This document shows, one piece after another, positions 1 through 27,282 of a DNA stretch of 27,282 bases. The notes beneath the pieces were generated by a model. It was not told where the DNA came from. It searched no databases and was given only the letters and a program-made list of their open reading frames with translations. The position numbers were made by a program, and so were the translations under genes. This DNA comes from a virus. The stretch is taken from IMG/VR virus record IMGVR_UViG_3300025626_000106, positions 1 to 27,282 of that record; one strand, written 5' to 3'. The number at the start of each line of letters is the position of its first letter. The first letter of the stretch is position 1.

Positions 1-272
1 GGGTGAGCGCTTTGCTCCATCATTAGCTGCACCCTTTCATTCTGTTCGACAGGTAGGTCGAAGCATAGCTGCGACCAGTCGCTGACGCGCTTAGTTGGCC
101 GGACCTTGGCTACGTGGGCATACAGATCGCCACGCCACCAGTTGAGATTATTGTTGAGTGACTCGATGGTGTTATAAGCTTCGGCCAGTTGGGCATCGCT
201 CACATCATCCGGCAGCGTTAGCACCTGCGCTTTAATATCAAAAATGGGTTTATGTGTCAGGGTTGTCTTCAT
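1..272 (-). CDS. Small unknown early protein, cut by the window start (probably continues at the right end)
   Basis: Open from ATG at 272 to the window edge (90 full codons). The start begins MKTTLTHKPIF and overlaps the stop of the upstream gene as ATGA, so the two are translationally coupled. Visible features are an acidic stretch around residues 20-30 and a Trp-rich segment near residue 45 (NNNLNWWRGDLYAHVAK). I do not recognise a family. If the last base of the window is joined to base 1, the frame continues CCG GAT AGG CGT and ends at a TAA at 27254-27252, giving a protein of about 101 residues, 26 bases ahead of the small terminase gene. It would then be the last gene of the early leftward operon. 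Coding is well supported by the overlap; the function is unknown. Confidence 0.65.
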   Translation of the reverse strand, partial: MKTTLTHKPIFDIKAQVLTLPDDVSDAQLAEAYNTIESLNNNLNWWRGDLYAHVAKVRPTKRVSDWSQLCFDLPVEQNERVQLMMEQSAH

Positions 273-736
273 TGTTTGCGCTTGGTTTGATTGGTTGATC
301 TGTAAGTCGCACACGCTTCGGCCGACTTCATGTAATTAGATGGCGGCAGCCCATACTTCTCAGCGTATGCCTTTACTCGTTTAGAGATTGCAGCCTTGCC
401 CCGAGTGCCGAGCCCATACACTCGAGCGGCATCCTTCATGCTGACCATGCCAGGCAATCCAATCGCATAGCCGACGATCACTGCGGCCAGTCCACTCGCT
501 GTGCCTTTGGGTGGATGTATGACGTCGAGCAAAGCGGCGCGGATCATGTGGAGCGCAGCGTCGCGCTTACCCTTGTCGATCTCTTCGTCGATATAGCCCG
601 CAAAGCCAGCCTCTGCAAGAATGGCATCGACCTCACGCCGTTCGCCACGGTCCGCATCTTGGATCGGTACCGGCATCCTACCTTCAAAGGCAAAGCCGGC
701 ATGCCCGCTTGGGAGTTGCTGATTATGCTCTGGCAT
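269..736 (-). CDS. Small helix-turn-helix-like early protein
   Basis: About 155 residues, starting MPEHNQQLPSG. The longer frame to 802 is less likely: the ATG at 736 has a strong purine run (GAGAGGGGGGG) a few bases upstream, whereas the extension runs into the repeat cluster. The central part is acidic (IDEEIDKGKRD). The C-terminal 60 residues (VSMKDAARVYGLGTRGKAAISKR and on) look like a helix-turn-helix of the kind that scans a helix, makes a turn at GLGTRG and presents a basic recognition helix. Role is unknown; it lies directly downstream of the candidate origin and shares an ATGA overlap with the next gene. A replication accessory or a regulator are both possible. Confidence 0.7.
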   Translation of the reverse strand: MPEHNQQLPSGHAGFAFEGRMPVPIQDADRGERREVDAILAEAGFAGYIDEEIDKGKRDAALHMIRAALLDVIHPPKGTASGLAAVIVGYAIGLPGMVSMKDAARVYGLGTRGKAAISKRVKAYAEKYGLPPSNYMKSAEACATYRSTNQTKRKQ

Positions 737-763: not shown

Positions 764-992
764 TGTGACAGTAAGCCAAATTGCTCGCCAATCTAGTGTC
801 ACGCATCGAGCCCTTTATACATGCGCATCGCAGCGTTTTGTGACAGTAAGACAGAAGAATGTATAATAAGTTAGTGTGTGTGCGCGCACATGAAACGTGT
901 GGTGATTCTAGTGTCACAGTGTCACAGCCCGCCCCCAGTGCAGGTTTCAGCCGATTTTGAAGTGTCACAAACGCCACGGCTAGTGTCACAGA
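764..992. promoter_or_regulatory. Cluster of seven 11-bp repeats, candidate replication origin (iterons)
   Basis: A 230-bp non-coding stretch between the helicase stop and the next gene carries seven copies of an 11-bp element with consensus (C/T)TA(C/G)TGTCACA. Copies reading on the plus strand: 793-803, 908-918, 918-926 (partial, abutting the previous one), 960-970 and 980-990. Copies reading on the minus strand: 775-764 and 850-839. A short AT-rich, alternating purine-pyrimidine segment lies at about 858-890. Repeated binding sites next to a primase/helicase pair are the usual build of an iteron origin, as in P4 or iteron plasmids; that it is the origin here is inference. An operator array is the alternative. 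Confidence 0.6.
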
Positions 993-1002
993 TTGGGGCC
1001 TT

Positions 1003-2493
1003 TTAGTCGTTCGGATCATATCTCTCCTCCTGTTGTTCGGGTTGTTTTTCATTGTCGAAGGCTTCTTGTGACAGTAATCGCCAATAGCGTTTCTTGCCGC
1101 CAGACTCTCGGCCCTGCACGATGCGGCCAGCGTAGGCGGGTCGCTCGGATAGCTTCTTGAGCATCTTGCCAAGGTTCGGATTAGCCTGCGGCACCTTGCC
1201 GCGCTCCTTGTAATCAAGGCCGCTGTCTTCATCTTTAAGGGCCGCTTCGAGATCCACCGCCGAGCCCTTCCACTCACCAGCACCGAGCATGATGTCGTTG
1301 TAATGATTAGAAGATCGCAGCACGGTGCGCTCGATATAGCCCCACAGCCGCGCTTCGGGGCTTAGGAAGTCGATACCCTGCACGATCTCGGGATGCGCAT
1401 AGGGCTTTACCCCAAAGCGCAGGTGCTCTTCTTGCAGCGCTTCGGGTAGTTCAAACTTATTAAGCAACCACCAAAGGAATGCCGGCAGCTCTTGTGACAG
1501 TAAATCCCACACCACTTTCTTAGTGGCGTGCTCATCCCAAGGCCACGCACCGGCGTGAAATTTAAAGCAGTGGACCTTGCCGATCAAATCGTCGTCGAGC
1601 GGCGGCAGCACCAGCAGATTCTCTTCTTCGAGATTGCACGCAAACGTGAGGCGCATAAAGGTCTCGATCTCAAAGCTGTCCTTGTTCTTACCTTCGCAGC
1701 TCGCACCACTCACCGCCACGCACTGCTTTGTGCGGGCCTTTACGATCATGCGATCGCCGATGTGCGTCTTCGATCCCTCATCGTCCACCACCAGGTGCGA
1801 CGAGGTAAACATCTCAGCATTAAAATTACTCTCGCCGAATATATAGCGCAGCGGACGACAGAGTCGGCCGCCGAGCAGCTCAGTGATGATGGCAATGTGC
1901 AGCGACTTACCGCAGCCAGGATCGCCAGCCATGATCAGCGCGTGCCCCTGGTTGGGTTGCCCTTCCTCGAGCGCGAGGTATCCGCGCTTCAGCCATGCGA
2001 GGTGGTAGGGTAGCTGATCGATCTCTTCGGTGCCATATACACCGCGAAAGCCACGATCGAGGAACTGTCCAAGGTTCGGCCAGCCGGCACAGTCCCCGCC
2101 CCATGGTAATTCACTATCGAGCCGCGCCGCATTATCTTCGGGGCTGGCTGGAGCGATCAGTCGCGGGGATTCTGTTATCAATACTTTTTTACCAGAGATC
2201 CAATGCTCGCCAGCATGCCAGCCAGAGTATGGGCCAGCAAAGTCCACCTCGCGTTGATTTGTAATTTCTAGCAGCGCGGCGTCCACTTGGCTCATCTCTG
2301 CCTCGCTCCCCTTAGGGATAGTGGCTTGCAGACCCTCGCTTTTCAGCTGGCGCATCATCTGCCGCTCGTTGCGTTGATGATAGCGCCCATTAATATCGAA
2401 CCAAAAACGCCCACCGCCGCTCGTTGCCTCATAGTAGCAACGCTCGACCGGGCCTTTCGACTCCCCTATTTCAAATTGTCCAATCTCGCCCAT
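1003..2493 (-). CDS. Replicative helicase, SF3-like/DUF5906 type P-loop ATPase
   Basis: 496 residues. The ATPase core shows Walker A GDPGCGKS (190-197), Walker B LVVDDEG (234-240) and a sensor-1-like RLTFACNLEEENL (281-293), the arrangement of phage and plasmid superfamily-3-type helicases in the D5/DUF5906 group. The N-terminal 130 residues hold no motif I recognise and may contact the primase or DNA. The C-terminus (YAGRIVQG to RYWRL, about 453-474) looks like a winged helix as in DUF5906 proteins. It starts two bases after the primase stop, so primase and helicase form a coupled pair; the ring helicase would unwind the origin located just beyond its 3' end. Two copies of the TTACTGTCACA element lie inside the gene and both encode Leu-Leu-Ser-Gln-Glu. 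Confidence 0.88.
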   Translation of the reverse strand: MGEIGQFEIGESKGPVERCYYEATSGGGRFWFDINGRYHQRNERQMMRQLKSEGLQATIPKGSEAEMSQVDAALLEITNQREVDFAGPYSGWHAGEHWISGKKVLITESPRLIAPASPEDNAARLDSELPWGGDCAGWPNLGQFLDRGFRGVYGTEEIDQLPYHLAWLKRGYLALEEGQPNQGHALIMAGDPGCGKSLHIAIITELLGGRLCRPLRYIFGESNFNAEMFTSSHLVVDDEGSKTHIGDRMIVKARTKQCVAVSGASCEGKNKDSFEIETFMRLTFACNLEEENLLVLPPLDDDLIGKVHCFKFHAGAWPWDEHATKKVVWDLLSQELPAFLWWLLNKFELPEALQEEHLRFGVKPYAHPEIVQGIDFLSPEARLWGYIERTVLRSSNHYNDIMLGAGEWKGSAVDLEAALKDEDSGLDYKERGKVPQANPNLGKMLKKLSERPAYAGRIVQGRESGGKKRYWRLLSQEAFDNEKQPEQQEERYDPND

Positions 2494-2495
2494 TG

Positions 2496-3671
2496 TTATT
2501 TTGCTTTTGATACGCTCGTCAGCGCCTCAGTAAATGAATCAGCAGCCAAAGTACCCGCCGCCCACCAATCGTTGATGTCCTTATGTGCGGTGCACTTCAT
2601 CCACCTCACCTCGATCTTAAATATCTCGCGCAGCTTGTGCGCAAAGCTCCACACCGGCAGCGCACCTGCGTGTGCGCGGCGGTCTTCTGTCCAGCCCTTG
2701 GCGGCGTCGTCGGCGTCGGGGATTAACACGATCACCGGCTTGATGCGGCGCAGCAGCGGCGCATAGTGCGACATAAATACGCCCACACCACTCGCTCCAC
2801 GGATGCCAAACACTGCGGCCTGTAATTCTGGATAGTCACTAAATCCACCGATCATTCCAAAGATGGTCGCCGCGTCCCATTGCCCCTCAGTGATCACCCA
2901 CACTGGCGCCTTCACCGACCCCAGTACAAATGGCAAAGCCACCGTCGCTTGCTTATCCCATTTGATGTTCGGCCGATAGCTCCACATTTTGCGGCCATCA
3001 TCATCACACCACCGACTATGGACCCCACACAGCGACCACGCCCCCAGTTTGTGACAGTATTTTTCAACGCTAAACTCAGGCTGCAACTTCCGCCCGGCAC
3101 CCATACGTCCCAGGCTTACCAGGCCAGCCACCCACTCGATCGGCCAGCCGCGTTCAGTCGCCAAATCTTCTTGCCAATTATTATCCGCCGCACGCTCCAG
3201 CGCTAGCTCGTAGCCCCGCGCCACTGGCTTCGGTGCCGGTAGTAAAAGCTCGCCCGCGATCTCATCCAGCCCGAGCTGCGCCCGCACCCAATCGGTACGC
3301 GCTTTCTCGATCGCCTTCTCCTTCTCGGCCTTCCATTCTTGAGCGCTTTTGCGCTGCGCATTCGGGTCCTTTTGATCAGGGTCGCCCCCTGCCAACTCGA
3401 TCAACTTGCGCGCCAGCTGCTGCTTGCTCCATTCAGGAAAGCAAAGCGCCACGAAATTCCACACCCCGCCCTTCTGAGCTTCGTCGGCGTGATCCTTAAA
3501 TACCTTTAATCCCTTCGACACTGAAAAGCTCGCGCCCTTTTTATCCAGGCGAAACGGCGATTTAACCACCCCGTCACGCATCGGGCACGGTGTGCCGTTC
3601 GGGTTCGGGGCCAGCTCCCACACATCGGCGAGGGTCAGCGAGGCAAAGGCTTCTTCTAAAGTAACAAACAT
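2496..3671 (-). CDS. DNA primase with Toprim domain and degenerate CHC2-like N-terminus
   Basis: 391 residues. The N-terminus (CPMRDGVVKSPFR, SFSVS, KVFKDH, GGVWNFVALC; residues 29-77) follows the layout of a CHC2 zinc-binding primase domain, but the Cys-His-Cys-Cys ligand set is not intact: C29 and C77 are seen, while H61 is only a weak candidate. A charged linker (107-127) leads to the catalytic half. The Toprim motifs are clear: TEGQWDA (E262, D266), IPDADDA (D319, D321) and KDINDW (364-369). It should make RNA primers for phage DNA replication with the helicase encoded directly downstream. A purine-rich GGAAGGG precedes the ATG at 3671. It abuts the upstream small gene. The primase assignment is firm; whether the N-terminus still binds zinc is open. 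Confidence 0.88.
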   Translation of the reverse strand: MFVTLEEAFASLTLADVWELAPNPNGTPCPMRDGVVKSPFRLDKKGASFSVSKGLKVFKDHADEAQKGGVWNFVALCFPEWSKQQLARKLIELAGGDPDQKDPNAQRKSAQEWKAEKEKAIEKARTDWVRAQLGLDEIAGELLLPAPKPVARGYELALERAADNNWQEDLATERGWPIEWVAGLVSLGRMGAGRKLQPEFSVEKYCHKLGAWSLCGVHSRWCDDDGRKMWSYRPNIKWDKQATVALPFVLGSVKAPVWVITEGQWDAATIFGMIGGFSDYPELQAAVFGIRGASGVGVFMSHYAPLLRRIKPVIVLIPDADDAAKGWTEDRRAHAGALPVWSFAHKLREIFKIEVRWMKCTAHKDINDWWAAGTLAADSFTEALTSVSKAK

Positions 3672-3890
3672 TTAGCAGTAGCCCTTCCAACGCCGCCACA
3701 GTCGATCGATCTCGTCCCGCTGGGAGCCTGTAAAGTGCACCCGAGCAGATTGATCGCAGACGAAATCGCGGTCCCAGATATTCAAGCGCGCATAGCACTG
3801 GGATGTAATCCAGTCGAGGCGTTCGCGGCGGTCGGCATCCGTCACCACGGCCACCTCTAGGCTATCGCTCACAAGTTTAAACTCGCTCAT
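3672..3890 (-). CDS. Small unknown early protein (72 aa)
   Basis: 72 residues, MSEFKLVSDSLEV and on, ending RLWRRWKGYC. The N-terminal half is acidic and the C-terminal half rich in Arg and Trp. I see no known domain, membrane segment or signal peptide. Its start overlaps the end of the preceding gene by 14 bases and its stop directly abuts the primase start, so it is part of the coupled replication operon. Because of this position an accessory replication or host-takeover role is plausible but unproven. Confidence 0.65.
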   Translation of the reverse strand: MSEFKLVSDSLEVAVVTDADRRERLDWITSQCYARLNIWDRDFVCDQSARVHFTGSQRDEIDRLWRRWKGYC

Positions 3891-4308
3891 GATCCCCCTT
3901 TTTTCGACCTACTCGTTGGAGTGCCGGTAATTGCCCGCCATAACGACTGCGCCACCGTATATAGTTACTGTACTCGACCTTAGCGATCTTACACGCCTCG
4001 GCCGCAAAGTGCCCCGAGTGCATTAAAGCGTTTACCTCTTCGAGTAGTTCACGGCGGCGCTGATCGGTGTAAGAGGTCCGCAGCACCGGCTTAGATAGTA
4101 TGCGCTGGGCTAAATCATAAGCCGCCAATTCGTCACTCAACTCACTTTCAGATTTTAAACGGATCTCAAAGCCCTGCTCAGCTACTTTTTTGATCGATTC
4201 CTGCACCACTTCTGGCGGAAACTTGCCAGCCGCTGTGCTGAGATAGCGCTCGGAGTGCACGTCGCAAAGCTGATTACAGCGCTGCGCTGTTTGAGCCAGC
4301 CCACTCAT
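3877..4308 (-). CDS. Putative DNA-binding protein with C-terminal helix-turn-helix
   Basis: 143 residues. The N-terminal part (residues 1-90) is helical and charged with no motif I know. From about residue 93 the sequence LEEVNALMHSGHFAAEACKIAKVEYSNY followed by IRWRSRYG resembles the helix-turn-helix of transposase/Rep-like DNA binders (helix, AAEACKIAKV turn, recognition helix with Tyr-Arg-Trp-Arg). The start at 4308 overlaps the stop of the 59-residue gene upstream (ATGA), preceded by a G-rich run. Given the repeated motif downstream, it is one candidate for the protein that binds the iterons; other early genes are also candidates. Function is not proven. Confidence 0.65.
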   Translation of the reverse strand: MSGLAQTAQRCNQLCDVHSERYLSTAAGKFPPEVVQESIKKVAEQGFEIRLKSESELSDELAAYDLAQRILSKPVLRTSYTDQRRRELLEEVNALMHSGHFAAEACKIAKVEYSNYIRWRSRYGGQLPALQRVGRKKGDHERV

Positions 4309-4484
4309 CGCCCCCCCCTTTCGCGTATACTTCTCGCTTGACCATACGCAGCATCCCGCAGCGTCGGCCAGTCTTGCCCATGCTTTTCGGCGATCTGCTT
4401 GGAGCGCCGAACCCCGCGTAATAGTGTCACACCATCACAGGCCCGCACGATGCGCGCCACTAACATTTCTATATGTGTATTCAT
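4305..4484 (-). CDS. Small unknown early protein (59 aa)
   Basis: A short frame of 59 codons from ATG at 4484 to TGA at 4305. It starts MNTHIEMLVARIVRACDG and ends RSIRERGGR. It is supported by an ATGA overlap at both ends: its start overlaps the stop of the 95-residue gene upstream and its stop overlaps the start of the 143-residue gene downstream. A GAGG element lies 11 bases before the start. The segment SKQIAEKHGQDWPTLRDAA could be a small helix-turn-helix (residues 28-46). One copy of the phage's 11-bp repeat (4422-4431) is embedded. No family recognised. Confidence 0.65.
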   Translation of the reverse strand: MNTHIEMLVARIVRACDGVTLLRGVRRSKQIAEKHGQDWPTLRDAAYGQARSIRERGGR

Positions 4485-5199: not shown

Positions 5200-5462
5200 A
5201 GTCCTTTACGTGTCTCGATTTGTTTTCCGTTGCGCATCGCCCGATCCACATCTGCGATATTAAAATAGGCCGTCCCGTTGATTTCTTTAGGTTTAAGCCT
5301 TTCCTCTGTTGCCCAGGCTCTCGCAACTCGTCCCTGTTTATCCGACGACCCCAGGTAGCGACCCAAAGCCACATATCCCGCGATCCAAGATGTGCGATAT
5401 GCCAGCGCCTCTTTCATTTCACGAATCTCAGCCAGTACGGTCTCTTCAAAAGCTGTCCTCAT
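5196..5462 (-). CDS. Excisionase-like small DNA-binding protein
   Basis: 88 residues. The second half (ERLKPKEINGTAYFNIADVDRAMRNG) resembles the wing and last helix of MerR/Xis/AlpA-type winged-helix proteins, where an Ile-Asn-Gly turn is followed by an aromatic strand and an Asp-rich helix start. The N-terminal 30 residues form a probable amphipathic helix. It is the second gene of the leftward operon; its ATG overlaps the RHH gene's stop (ATGA) and has a strong GGAGGGGG site. Position beside the switch, about 1.1 kb from attP, suits an excisionase or a second regulator. Family assignment is a pattern judgement. Confidence 0.55.
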   Translation of the reverse strand: MRTAFEETVLAEIREMKEALAYRTSWIAGYVALGRYLGSSDKQGRVARAWATEERLKPKEINGTAYFNIADVDRAMRNGKQIETRKGL

Positions 5463-5632
5463 AGCACCCCCTCCGTATCACTGCGTAGTACGGCAGAGGC
5501 CAAAGCTTGTTCGATAATAAAGCGAATCTGACCTGACACCGTTCGATGGTTCTCTTTAGCGGTTTTTGTCAGTTCTTCCTTCATTTTTCGGGTGATCTCA
5601 AAGGTTTGTATTATTCGTTCGTCGTCTTCCAT
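5459..5632 (-). CDS. Ribbon-helix-helix regulator, first gene of the early operon
   Basis: 57 residues from ATG at 5632 (MEDDERIIQTFEITRKMKEEL and on). A longer frame to 5824 crosses the divergent promoter region and the other RHH gene, so the short start is preferred. Layout is that of an Arc/MetJ-type ribbon-helix-helix: a beta strand (IQTFEITRK, 8-16) that would enter the DNA major groove, helix A (KMKEELTKTAKEN) and helix B after the RTVSGQI turn. It is a paralogue of the divergent plus-strand gene (shared KEN(H)RTVS, I, EQ, L positions). No convincing Shine-Dalgarno site; the leader contains the inverted repeat, so self-regulation is likely. Confidence 0.72.
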   Translation of the reverse strand: MEDDERIIQTFEITRKMKEELTKTAKENHRTVSGQIRFIIEQALASAVLRSDTEGVL

Positions 5633-5714
5633 CCACGCACCGTAATATTCCGTATTACGGCAAGTCAATAAATAATTTGCATTATTTTGTAATACCTTTA
5701 AATCCTTAGCTTGT
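5633..5714. promoter_or_regulatory. Divergent switch promoter/operator region
   Basis: 82 bases between two head-to-head RHH genes. A perfect 8-bp inverted repeat CCGTAATA-N5-TATTACGG lies at 5640-5660, and a further half-site GTAATAC at about 5690-5696. For leftward transcription, TTGACT (5668-5663) is a good -35 and TATTAC (5647-5642), inside the repeat, a possible -10 with a short 15-base spacer. A rightward promoter is less clear: TTGCAT at 5678-5683 followed by AT-rich sequence. RHH repressors commonly bind short inverted or tandem half-sites, so this is the likely operator of the lysis-lysogeny switch. Confidence 0.55.
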
Positions 5715-6020
5715 ATGAGAACAAGAAACCATGGACGGGCAGTGGATAAAACTGCCATCAGCGTATCTATGTCGAAAAGTTTAAAGGCTAAGATACAAAC
5801 AGCAGCAGCAAAGGAAAACCGCACTGTTTCAAATTACATAACTCACCACTTAGAACAGTTCCTCGAGAAGCAACGACCCGGCACAAGTTGGGAACAATTA
5901 ATACCGGCAGCAAAAGCCCAACAATCGGACGACCCAGAGGCGCGCGAGCAAGTGCTAAAAGACATCGCCGCCCGGCAGCTCAAAGATGATGCCGACAAAC
6001 TACGCCGCGATAAGGCATAG
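5715..6020 (+). CDS. Ribbon-helix-helix regulator, divergent from the early operon
   Basis: 101 residues. The RHH core spans about residues 12-52: strand KTAISVSMS, helix A KSLKAKIQTAAAKEN, turn RTVSNY, helix B ITHHLEQFLEK. A charged C-terminal tail (QSDDPEAREQVLKDIAARQ to RRDKA) is probably helical and could mediate oligomerisation. It is transcribed away from the early operon and is the only regulator on the plus strand, the position of a prophage repressor or anti-repressor. No Shine-Dalgarno is visible before the ATG at 5715; an internal ATG at residue 19 would cut the strand and is unlikely. Role as the lysogeny repressor is inferred from context. Confidence 0.75.
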   Translation: MRTRNHGRAVDKTAISVSMSKSLKAKIQTAAAKENRTVSNYITHHLEQFLEKQRPGTSWEQLIPAAKAQQSDDPEAREQVLKDIAARQLKDDADKLRRDKA

Positions 6021-6130
6021 CCCATACAAAAATAACCAGTCATAAAAATAAATAAGGCGCCATCGCTTACCCACTAAAGCACAGGAGCCCGCCGATGGCT
6101 CACCACTGAGCCGTCAGAGGGTTTAGATCC

Positions 6131-6364
6131 TTATACCCCCCCCCCATCGACTAGCCCAAGGCTCGCTTGGGGGTCCATACGGCGCAACAATGCGCTGTTC
6201 TGAAGTTTAAGCGATTCGATCTCTGCATCTCTTTCGGCCATCTCAGCCTCCAGCTGCGCTAAGTAGCCAGGAATCACTTTAAAAGTTGGCCCCCCCATCT
6301 TACAGCCAGAGCATAAATCGTAGCTCATCTTAGCCGTCTCTTTTAATAATCTGAATCCATCCAT
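6131..6364 (-). CDS. Small unknown coiled-coil protein (77 aa)
   Basis: 77 residues: a short N-terminus with CSGC (18-21), then a clear coiled coil (LAQLEAEMAERDAEIESLKL and on, about 35-62), then a Gly-rich end coded by a run of ten G. It lies alone on the minus strand, convergent with the RHH gene and upstream of attP. No good ribosome site before ATG 6364; the internal ATG at residue 13 is an alternative. The heptad pattern argues for real coding, but isolation and weak initiation signals keep this uncertain. Confidence 0.45.
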   Translation of the reverse strand: MDGFRLLKETAKMSYDLCSGCKMGGPTFKVIPGYLAQLEAEMAERDAEIESLKLQNSALLRRMDPQASLGLVDGGGV

Positions 6365-6575
6365 GCCAGGATTACAAACGCCTTACAATTCAGCAGTCAA
6401 AACAAATTTAACCGCTCAATAAAATTGGTCCTCAGGGACTAATTCTTGTCGCCGCTAAGAGTTATTTTTTATTTGTAATATATTTTAAAAAGGGAATTTA
6501 AGCCGATAAAACAGTACAGAAACACGACAAAAAGTAAAAGAGATGCGTAAGTAGTTGACTATCAGCAATGGTAAA

Positions 6576-6603
6576 TTGGGTTCAAATCCCATCTTCTCCG
6601 CCA
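6576..6603 (+). other. attP: attP core: 3' end of a tRNA gene (probably tRNA-Ser)
   Basis: The bases read as the T arm and acceptor of a tRNA: TTGGG (6576-6580), loop TTCAAAT (6581-6587), CCCAT (6588-6592), acceptor strand CTTCTCC (6593-6599), discriminator G (6600), CCA (6601-6603). No matching 5' acceptor GGAGAAG or anticodon arm is found upstream, so this is only a tRNA tail. The outermost T-stem pair is T-T, which suggests identity with the host tRNA begins at about 6577. G73 and the TCTCCGCCA ending are typical of bacterial tRNA-Ser. Recombination here restores the host tRNA, a common strategy of tyrosine integrases. Confidence 0.75.
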
Positions 6604-6606
6604 ATA

Positions 6607-6633
6607 CCCCCTCGCTTATTGCGGGGGTTTTTT
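6607..6633 (+). terminator. Rho-independent terminator following the tRNA tail
   Basis: CCCC and CGC arms (6607-6615, with a small bulge) pair with GCG and GGGG (6621-6627) around a TTATT loop, followed by TTTTTT (6628-6633). It starts three bases after the CCA and is presumably the host tRNA terminator carried in the phage, so that a tRNA rebuilt by integration keeps its terminator. It would also stop transcription entering int from the left. Confidence 0.75.
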
Positions 6634-6767
6634 ATGCCTAAGTGGCTGACTGCAAAGGGCATACGCTATAAACAAAGCTTTTTTTAATTTCTGCTTATTA
6701 TGCAATATGCCCCATAAAAGTGCCTTATAATGTTTGAAAACGGTACAAAAAGAGTACAGGATTCAGT

Positions 6768-9285: not shown

Positions 9286-11568
9286 TTAAATTGCTGCGAT
9301 TTCTGTGATTAGGGTGTCTTGCAATCCTTCTAAGGTAGCTAGGTCAAGTGCAGGGCCAGCGTGATAGGTTGCTAGGCGAGCATCAGCAGATGGGGTTGCT
9401 CCAATTGAGTATACGTAGAGATCATTTGCACTTGGGGCAATAGATGTGATTGCTGCCGAATAACTAGTCTGATTGCTGCGAACGTCGATTGTAGTGCTTG
9501 ATGACCTCGATGCTCCGTAGATTCCAGATGTAGGGACTGTTCCGAGTGTCGCTAATGATGACGAGTTAAGGGATTGCTGCGGAGTTGATCGCAATGAGAG
9601 ACTAGCACCTCCCGCATTTGTCATATAGAACTTGTTAGCCCCAGTTGCGGCTGTCGTGATATGCACGGATGCCGATGCGTCGTCTTGGAGTAGCGCAGTC
9701 CCAGCTACATTGGTAGCAATATACTTAGTCGAACCATCACCTTTCAGTCCAGTCAACTGATCCAAGTCACCTGCAACAAAGTTATTGTTTACGTTTGTAA
9801 TAGAGGCCATTCCAGCACGTAGAGGAACAGTAATACCTTGAATACCTACACCCACAAAGGATGCAGAGGATTGCATCGTATCCCAGTAAGCACCACCAAG
9901 TTCAACAAGTGACGTAATGTAATTCGTCAGCGGTTGCTTGTAGGCTACGTGCGTAGTGTCACCTGCGGCTGCAAGGCGTGAGAAATAAGATGCAGCAGCT
10001 ACAAATGTGTGCGCTGTACGGATCTCGGAAAGTAATGTGTCTTGCAGACCTTCTAAGGTTGCGAGGTTGAGTGCAGGACCTGCGTGGTAGGTTGCTAATC
10101 GGAACGAACCACTTGTTGTTCCGTTAATAGCAAACATATCCAGATTGCCAGAAGCTGGCGTAACCGATGCTGTTGTGCGTGTACCAGTTGTCCCGTTTGA
10201 TCGGTAGTCGTAGCCTGTCGAAACCGAGCGAGAAAGTCCCAATAGGCCAACGGTAGTAGAAGCACTTCCAGTTACAGCCTGCGCACCGTAACAGGCAGTT
10301 ATAAAGCTCGCTGTGCCTCTAGCCCCAAAGCCATTTGCAAGGTTTGTTCCGAAGTAAAAAGGATTGGTTCCGCTTACAGTTTCTGTTCTGTATGTACTGG
10401 CTGAAGTGTCATTCTGTGCGTAATTTGATTGATCCGTGTTAGTGCTGATTCTCTTAGAGGAACCATTGCACAATAGACCAGTCAACTGATCCAAATCACC
10501 CGCAACAAAGTTATTTTGCGTAGGGACAGTCATCCCATCCCTAAGAGGAACTGTGATACCCTTAATACCTACACCCACGAAAGATGCTGCAGATTCCATC
10601 GTATCCCAGTAAGCTCCACCAAGCGTTACTAAGCTGTCGATGTAGTTAGCTAGAGGTTGACGGTACGCTAAGAATGTTGTGTCACCAGCACTTACCAGTC
10701 GGCTAAAGTAGTTAGCTGCTTCTGTTGAAAAGCCTATCCCTGCTATCTCGGAAAGTAAAGTGTCTTGCAGACCTTCTAGGGTTGCTAGGTTTAGTGCTGG
10801 GCCGATATGGTAGGTTGCTAGTCGTGGGTCTGTCTTAGGGCTGGCTCCAGCTGCGAACACCCGAATTACATCTGTAGTTGGAGCTAATGAGGTGCTAGAA
10901 AACGGATAGTCCGTTTGATTTGTTCGCTGAGTTTGAGTAGTTGAAGATGATCGACTTCCTCCGACTAGTCCACTTACCCAGCCCGTTCCATTTGATACCA
11001 GTCCTCCGTGGACAGCACATTGAATGGTAGATCCCAGATCACGAAGAAATACTCCACCGCCTATACCTCCATTGAATCCACTTCCAGCCGTATAATTTCC
11101 AGACGTTACAGCTTCAGTTTGATACACCGATAATGAACCGTCATTCTGAGAAATGTCATTACTTAATAGATTCGTATCAATAACCTTAGTCGAAGCATCA
11201 CCTTTCAGTCCAGTCAACTGATCTAGGTCAGCAGCAACAAAGTTATTTTGCGTAGGGACAGTCATCCCATCCCTAAGCGGAACTGTGACACCCTGTATGC
11301 CTACACCCACAAAGGACGTGGAGGATTCCATCGTATCCCAGTATGCACCACCCAGTGCCACTAAGCTATCAATGTAGTTAGCGAGTGGCTGCTTGTAGTC
11401 AACGTATGTAGTATCACCCGCAGTGTCCAAGCGGTCGAAGTAGTCCTGTGCTTCTGCCGAAAAAGCAGAGCTAGTATATACCTGCGTTGCGCCCAAATAT
11501 GCAAGTGCGACCTCGGTTGCTCCGAGATACACCTTGCTCGCCAATGAACTGCCGAGTGCTAAAGCCAT
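9286..11568 (-). CDS. Receptor-binding/tail fibre protein with three ~240-residue repeats
   Basis: 760 residues. A short N-terminus repeats the motif YLGAT(E/Q)V (14-20, 24-30), common at the start of phage tail proteins. Three tandem repeats follow (about 37-278, 281-517, 523-760), each running from a YF(D/S)RL-x-x-AGDTT start through PLxNYIxSLVxLGGAYWDTM, FVGVGI, VPLR, NNF, DLDQLTGL, a variable middle, an SRS(S/V)ST loop and the end RLATYHxGPALxLATLEGLQDTL. The middle resembles a lectin-like (concanavalin/LamG-type) fold judging by alternating strands and SRSSST-type loops, which is inference. Constant edges and divergent centres fit receptor binding. It lies at the end of the tail-tip genes. 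Confidence 0.78.
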   Translation of the reverse strand: MALALGSSLASKVYLGATEVALAYLGATQVYTSSAFSAEAQDYFDRLDTAGDTTYVDYKQPLANYIDSLVALGGAYWDTMESSTSFVGVGIQGVTVPLRDGMTVPTQNNFVAADLDQLTGLKGDASTKVIDTNLLSNDISQNDGSLSVYQTEAVTSGNYTAGSGFNGGIGGGVFLRDLGSTIQCAVHGGLVSNGTGWVSGLVGGSRSSSTTQTQRTNQTDYPFSSTSLAPTTDVIRVFAAGASPKTDPRLATYHIGPALNLATLEGLQDTLLSEIAGIGFSTEAANYFSRLVSAGDTTFLAYRQPLANYIDSLVTLGGAYWDTMESAASFVGVGIKGITVPLRDGMTVPTQNNFVAGDLDQLTGLLCNGSSKRISTNTDQSNYAQNDTSASTYRTETVSGTNPFYFGTNLANGFGARGTASFITACYGAQAVTGSASTTVGLLGLSRSVSTGYDYRSNGTTGTRTTASVTPASGNLDMFAINGTTSGSFRLATYHAGPALNLATLEGLQDTLLSEIRTAHTFVAAASYFSRLAAAGDTTHVAYKQPLTNYITSLVELGGAYWDTMQSSASFVGVGIQGITVPLRAGMASITNVNNNFVAGDLDQLTGLKGDGSTKYIATNVAGTALLQDDASASVHITTAATGANKFYMTNAGGASLSLRSTPQQSLNSSSLATLGTVPTSGIYGASRSSSTTIDVRSNQTSYSAAITSIAPSANDLYVYSIGATPSADARLATYHAGPALDLATLEGLQDTLITEIAAI
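9289..10002 (-). repeat. Receptor-binding protein repeat 3
   Basis: Codes for residues 523-760. Shares the conserved edges with the other two copies but has an altered VPLRAGMASITNVNNNF segment in place of VPLRDGMTVPTQNNF and a different middle. The block coding DLDQLTGLKGD matches repeat 1 more closely than repeat 2. Confidence 0.75.
10018..10728 (-). repeat. Receptor-binding protein repeat 2
   Basis: Codes for residues 281-517. A 44-base block (10502-10545) is identical to one in repeat 1 (11234-11277). The DLDQLTGL segment is followed by a divergent LCNGSSKRI in place of KGD(A/G)STK. Confidence 0.78.
10735..11460 (-). repeat. Receptor-binding protein repeat 1
   Basis: Codes for residues 37-278. 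Contains the 44-base block shared exactly with repeat 2 and a Gly-rich middle (GSGFNGGIGGG) not found in the other copies. Confidence 0.78.
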
Positions 11569-27225: not shown

Positions 27226-27282
27226 GTGTGTTTATAGTTTTTTAAAAAGTTTTACGCGAAAAACGTCGCGTAACGCCTATCC
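27226..27282 (-). promoter_or_regulatory. Junction segment upstream of terS with a 7-bp hairpin
   Basis: An inverted repeat TTACGCG (27252-27258) / CGCGTAA (27267-27273) is followed on the minus strand by AAACTTTTT. If the window is circular, the repeat covers the last codons and TAA stop of the gene running in from base 1. It could be a weak terminator between early and late operons, or lie near the packaging site; neither is shown. The remaining bases are AT-rich terS leader. Confidence 0.45.

Follow-up and report, generated by a model that had tools for sequence, protein, structure and literature searches.

A candidate iteron origin of SaPI/PICI-type layout beside a DUF5906 helicase gene in a tailed phage

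We analysed a 27.3-kb phage sequence (positions 1 to 27,282 of IMG/VR record IMGVR_UViG_3300025626_000106, hereafter the window) and concluded, with a probability that we put at roughly 80%, that a cluster of short repeats at 764-990 is an iteron origin of replication with the layout of SaPI and PICI origins, carried by a full tailed phage. This reading is the best supported because the cluster lies 3' of a helicase gene, because its sites form two sets around an unstable patch, and because a 21-43-8 bp spacing of its sites is shared with the prophage contig L230. A preliminary description of this DNA had suggested an iteron-type origin here, and the same three features support that suggestion.

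Results

Repeat cluster in the intergenic region

The cluster occupies the intergenic stretch (737-1002) between the helicase gene and the gene for a 155-aa HTH-like protein. Seven TGTCAC(A/G) cores, counted with the pattern STGTCAC, were found in the 263-bp intergenic region (Table 1), compared with a mean of 0.16 and a maximum of 3 in shuffled sequences. The preliminary description had counted seven copies of an 11-bp element. Seven cores are indeed present, but just four of them belong to exact 11-mers (764-774, 839-849, 908-918, and 980-990); a single mismatch is present in the copy starting at 793, and the sites at 920 and 963 match in the core only. Over the whole window, the 11-mer is matched nine times at up to one mismatch (0.75 expected), a number reached in 0 of 100 shuffles. 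Common to the sites is TGTCACA, mostly with TAC or TAG just before it, and this near-palindrome is the functional unit of the repeats.

Read in the direction of transcription, the helicase stop codon is followed by 12 bp, four same-orientation sites at spacings of 21, 43, and 8 bp, an unstable segment of 30 bp, and three sites of mixed orientation. The adjacency to the helicase gene and the AT-rich patch between the sites, both noted earlier, are real, the patch with the genome-wide rank given in Table 1. The region had also been called non-coding, which is probable: a minus-strand frame stays open across it in the window, but the relative L001 has an indel in that frame. Helical phasing of the sites gave P=0.02 in the window but was absent in Xanthomonas phage AhaSv and weak in L230, and was rejected as a general feature.

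Further sites lie outside the cluster, and all sites are confined to 764-4431 of the window. The earlier statement that no full match occurs to the right of 4431 is true but generous, since the last exact 11-mer starts at 1493 and only the one-mismatch copies at 3050 and 4421 lie beyond. The intragenic copies at 1067, 1493, and 3050 (TACTGTCACA) fall in two reading frames, and 0 of 5000 synonymous-codon shuffles gave three; the copies in the helicase and primase genes exceed what codon use explains. Two oriented classes of site had been proposed, and in the window all five TAC-type sites are on the minus strand and all four TAG-type sites on the plus strand. This rule is not conserved elsewhere, as AhaSv has TAC-type and L025 has TAG-type sites on both strands. 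In L001 (98% identical to the window), 11 of 11 sites are unchanged, which at 2% divergence is weak evidence alone.

Table 1. Repeat sites and neighbouring features in the window
Feature	Position	Strand	Core (strand)	Remarks
155-aa HTH-like protein; its gene is the first on the packaging side	269..736	-		88% identical in L006
Iteron TTACTGTCACA, distal set	764..774	-	764-770 (-)	Exact match; conserved in L001
Iteron CTAGTGTCACG, distal set	793..803	+	797-803 (+), G-ended	One mismatch; conserved in L001
Iteron TTACTGTCACA, distal set	839..849	-	839-845 (-)	Exact match; ACTGTCACAAAACG conserved in L230 too
Sigma-70-like promoter match GTGACA-N16-TATAAT, 11/12	840..867	+		Consensus match only; overlaps iteron at 839
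Unstable 30 bp separating the iteron sets; candidate unwinding element	845..874			Lowest stability of any intergenic 30-bp stretch; by nearest-neighbour energy, at the 99.6th percentile of the window
Iteron CTAGTGTCACA, proximal set, site 4	908..918	+	912-918 (+)	Exact match; 21-43-8 spacing conserved in L230
Iteron core TGTCACA, proximal set, site 3	920..926	+	920-926 (+)	8 bp from site 4, likewise in L230
Iteron core TGTCACA, proximal set, site 2	963..969	+	963-969 (+)	43 bp from site 3, likewise in L230
Iteron CTAGTGTCACA, proximal set, site 1	980..990	+	984-990 (+)	21 bp from site 2, likewise in L230; 12 bp past helicase stop
496-aa DUF5906 helicase (SF3/D5-like AAA+), proposed initiator	1003..2493	-		PF19263 E=1.5e-9; NrS-1 primase-helicase 6k9c E=8.7e-13 by profile
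Iteron TTACTGTCACA, intragenic, helicase gene	1067..1077	-		Exact 11-mer
Iteron TTACTGTCACA, intragenic, helicase gene	1493..1503	-		Exact 11-mer
391-aa primase, adjacent to helicase	2496..3671	-		Weak PHROG primase matches; 32% identical to primase beside L230 helicase
Iteron ATACTGTCACA, intragenic, primase gene, other reading frame	3050..3060	-		One mismatch
Iteron ATAGTGTCACA, outlying, inside 59-aa ORF 4305-4484	4421..4431	+		One mismatch; conserved in L001

Genome context

The primase and DUF5906 helicase genes are the last of the early minus-strand genes, and the window encodes its own terminase and ORFs resembling head and tail genes. In L001, the 155-aa gene is followed by genes for a 301-aa protein, TerS, and TerL. 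This contig joins the window end (27282) to the start (1) with ∼0.6 kb of extra sequence, which holds part of the 301-aa gene with NEGG-type repeats. Because L001 runs across the window end into its start, the phage map is probably circular, at about 27.9 kb. The contigs of several relatives also break at window position 27282.

No close relative of the helicase was found among named phages or plasmids, and a first scan of genome contigs gave no match. An AlphaFold model of the helicase built with three sequences had a pLDDT of 31 and was unusable, and we infer a DNA-binding C-terminus from the sequence of the protein instead.

At 6512-6603, ∼95 bp match contig L217 of an Opitutia MAG and terminate, next to the integrase gene, in what resembles the 3' end of a tRNA or tmRNA (ggttcaaatcccatcttctccgcca). 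This 3' end (6579-6603) matched one genome of the GTDB set, the Opitutia MAG; ARAGORN called no gene in L217. The segment is a probable attP and points to a Verrucomicrobiota host. At 5459-6020, two Arc/RHH-like genes diverge from an AT-rich gap and are candidates for lysogeny control. A predicted 760-aa protein (9286-11568) consists of three modules that resemble one another, each roughly 200 residues long.

Repeat arrays beside related helicases

Relatives were picked by the helicase protein alone, in the class to which G020 belongs, the Opitutia genome that L217 comes from. Helicase relatives were encoded in 30 of the 286 genomes of this class. A significant repeat array was present within 700 bp downstream of the helicase at 7 of 28 loci and upstream at 0 of 28; at 21 of these 28 loci no significant downstream array was detected. 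A second sample of the phylum yielded five further downstream arrays (P≤0.005) and none upstream. The repeated word varies between the helicase relatives, and the motif of the window clearly recurs in only two or three of them.

One of the relatives, L230, is a prophage contig in a Verrucomicrobiota genome with the gene order primase, helicase, sites, and then TerS/TerL-like ORFs. Its word is TGTCAC, and four same-orientation sites directly after the helicase stop are spaced by exactly 21-43-8 bp, followed by an AT-rich gap and two sites of opposite orientation. The helicases of L230 and the window share about 30% identity, or 33% when counted over the alignment. Random placement of sites reproduced the 21-43-8 spacing in 2 of 200,000 trials. 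Since L230 was selected without use of the motif, we regard this spacing match as the strongest evidence. In L230, the primase and helicase genes are preceded, immediately upstream, by a gene for a DnaN-like sliding clamp (L230:7622-8758).

The sister phage L006 (IMG/VR) keeps the 155-aa gene, TerS, and TerL (94% identical) and has a different replication module. In the same place as the cluster it carries other repeats, four copies of ATGTAACAGCAGGT. L006 thus keeps the packaging side but has swapped the replication module together with the repeats, which indicates that the repeats travel with the replication genes. The 155-residue HTH protein had been named as a candidate binder of the sites; it is disfavoured, as L006 retains it yet has other repeats. 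L012 was discarded as a comparison because it has a DnaC-like module and the intergenic gap is absent at that place.

The motif in other phages and viral contigs

In viral contigs, a two-copy motif pattern was found in at least 119 stretches, vs. 46 for a reversed control. Among the matches listed, 57 of 117 loci had at least four cores in 400 bp, compared with 6 of 46 in the control (P=1.5e-5). The genes beside clusters of at least five cores were then scanned blind, with the genes beside two-copy loci serving as comparison. DUF5906 led among the genes by these motif-selected clusters (12 of 75 proteins, compared with no more than 1 of 64 for two-copy loci). Many of these proteins belong to one large family, in which the array is 5' of the gene, and the enrichment in viral contigs drops to P=0.09 when this family is counted once. 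Other clusters adjoin genes for DUF3987, DUF927-Cch, and VapE-like helicases; the VapE phages Mano, FoX2, ep3, and PPpW-3 had no arrays. A family of ∼1300-aa DUF5906 proteins (46-65% identical; L061, L068, L087, L106, L126, L157, L158, and L166) has AAGTGTCACA clusters that directly adjoin the gene on its 5' rather than its 3' side.

A look for the motif in relatives had been suggested earlier. Besides the matching place, orientation, and spacing in L230, there are 12 TGTCAC copies past the DUF5906 primase gene of AhaSv. Eight of the nine genomic TGTSACA of this phage sit past its PrimPol-DUF5906 gene. The position past the primase gene is kept with other words in AH2 and BcepNazgul (GGTCCGAA) and in SeWh-1 (GGTTACAA), and the iteron word likewise differs at a kept position in THSA-485A and Epona. 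That the relatives of AhaSv carry other words in the same position argues for recognition by a phage-encoded rather than a host protein. THSA-485A (GGTAACCGAA) and Epona (TAGGTGAAAC) (L043/L052, L044/L053) have iteron arrays of about ten copies just past DUF927-type primase-helicase genes, where the annotation shows no feature.

Discussion

Comparison with known origins

The C-terminal domain of SaPI Rep helicases recognises an iteron origin directly downstream of the helicase's own gene, and binding by the C-terminal domain on its own has been demonstrated for Cch2 of SCCmec (PMC7581432). PICI origins are located immediately 3' of the initiator gene and have an AT-rich patch between two iteron sets, an organisation stated to be known from no other bacterial replicon (PMC6092414); the same paper used plasmids in E. 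coli K-12 to test a PICI origin. The window is similar in that its genes for the primase and the AAA+ helicase, the proposed initiator, are directly followed by an intergenic iteron array. As in L230, the first site comes 12 bp after the helicase stop; four and three cores flank 845-874, and the AAA+ helicase (DUF5906 and NrS-1 matches) has a primase gene next to it. It differs from SaPIs and PICIs in being a tailed phage that carries terminase and structural genes of its own, and in its DUF5906 helicase, separate primase, TGTCACA iteron, and intragenic copies. We rejected the window as a PICI element itself, as it has its own terminase and head/tail-like ORFs, whereas these are helper-dependent satellites without virion genes. 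In the SCCmec Cch2 operon, the helicase C-terminal domain also binds direct-repeat iterons in the downstream intergenic region (PMC7581432), but there are three iterons of 5 nt (AAGTG), the helicase is of another family, and the element is not a phage.

The Casjensviridae (AhaSv, AH2, BcepNazgul, and SeWh-1) resemble the window in having an iteron array downstream of the primase gene. AhaSv has the same TACTGTCACA iteron, and DUF5906 occurs in its relative L016. They differ in that PrimPol, PriCT_2, and DUF5906 are fused in AhaSv and L016 and that most carry other iterons; the arrays are without annotated function in the regions read. In a lambda-type origin the iterons lie within the initiator gene, whereas here the main array is intergenic and the two helicase-gene copies are outliers. 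Satellite phage P4 has an SF3-type initiator helicase, alpha, and short iterons both at its origin and at a second cis region, crr. Alpha is a single fused primase-helicase, and iterons and layout are different, whereas the window has separate primase and helicase genes. With crr one may compare the extra copies at 1067, 1493, 3050, and 4421 of the window; our guess is that the copies inside genes may serve to titrate the initiator or have a crr-like role.

A literature search for TGTCACA or GTGTCACA origins, which covered open-access papers and missed most subscription journals, returned nothing relevant. The origin had been called possibly undescribed. Within the open-access papers searched, the iteron and its fixed spacing appear to be so, but origins of this kind have been described in SaPI, PICI, and SCC elements (PMC7581432, PMC6092414). 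A wider and more tentative idea, which we hold to be possible but rather doubtful, is that TGTCACA is a recurrent, undescribed origin box across phages, comparable to the DnaA box in bacteria. Initiator helicases of the DUF5906, DUF3987, DUF927 (with Cch-type HTH), and VapE-like types would recognise the clusters next to their genes through C-terminal DNA-binding domains that are either related or convergent.

Alternative explanations

The sites may instead be operators or stoperator-like sites at which a repressor, e.g., one of the two Arc-like RHH proteins, silences the early and packaging operons. We consider this unlikely. The sites are dispersed in the early region with all TAC-type copies in the direction of transcription, a promoter-like match overlaps one of them, and the phage does encode two Arc-like proteins; yet the core is absent between the divergent RHH genes (∼5630-5715), a place where one would expect a repressor of this kind to act, and in relatives the arrays go with the gene for the replicative helicase, at exact spacing beside its stop codon. 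Stoperators of the mycobacteriophage L5 type are found genome-wide and at the early promoter, whereas the sites here are restricted to 764-4431. The packaging module, which the cluster precedes in the direction of transcription, could be served by a pac/cos or partition site in place of an origin, but L006 retains this module with other repeats in that position, and no ParA/ParB gene was found among the proteins scanned. A packaging or partition role is very improbable.

Cumulative GC skew, which had been proposed as a check, does not support the site, as the minimum lies at 6.6 kb and the maximum at 24.9 kb, neither at the cluster. The skew minimum is about 300 bp from the iteron array in THSA-485A and away from the array in AhaSv and Epona, and because of this disagreement we treated skew as a weak guide; as origin evidence it does not point to the cluster. 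It would fit a scheme in which the sites bind the helicase for copy control or initiator titration and replication starts near the minimum at ∼6.6 kb. Position 6462 is where the DNA of the window is least stable, and the extra intragenic sites would suit titration. No notable repeat array was seen in 5600-6700, however, and the probable attP and the integrase boundary lie there, which means that the skew step may stem from the junction of modules. In addition, origins of this kind sit 3' of the initiator gene (PMC6092414). We regard a start near 6.6 kb as quite improbable.

Proposed mechanism and implications

In the favoured reading as an iteron origin, TGTCACA with its TA(C/G) flank would be the iteron, and the DUF5906 helicase, encoded just upstream in the direction of transcription, would be the initiator. 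Judging from its sequence, the C-terminal region of the helicase may bind the proximal array of four sites as well as the distal sites. The protein would assemble as a hexameric AAA+ ring, perhaps as two rings, melt the unstable patch at 845-874, and load itself, after which the adjacent primase would prime and the origin would fire.

Such an origin would provide a readable landmark for the many phages whose initiator helicase is of the D5/DUF5906 type and in which origins have seldom been mapped. It would also extend to full tailed phages an origin layout that had been described as confined to the SaPI/PICI satellites (PMC6092414), and this bears on the source of satellite replication modules. 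The fixed 21-43-8 spacing and the co-varying iterons make initiator specificity directly testable.
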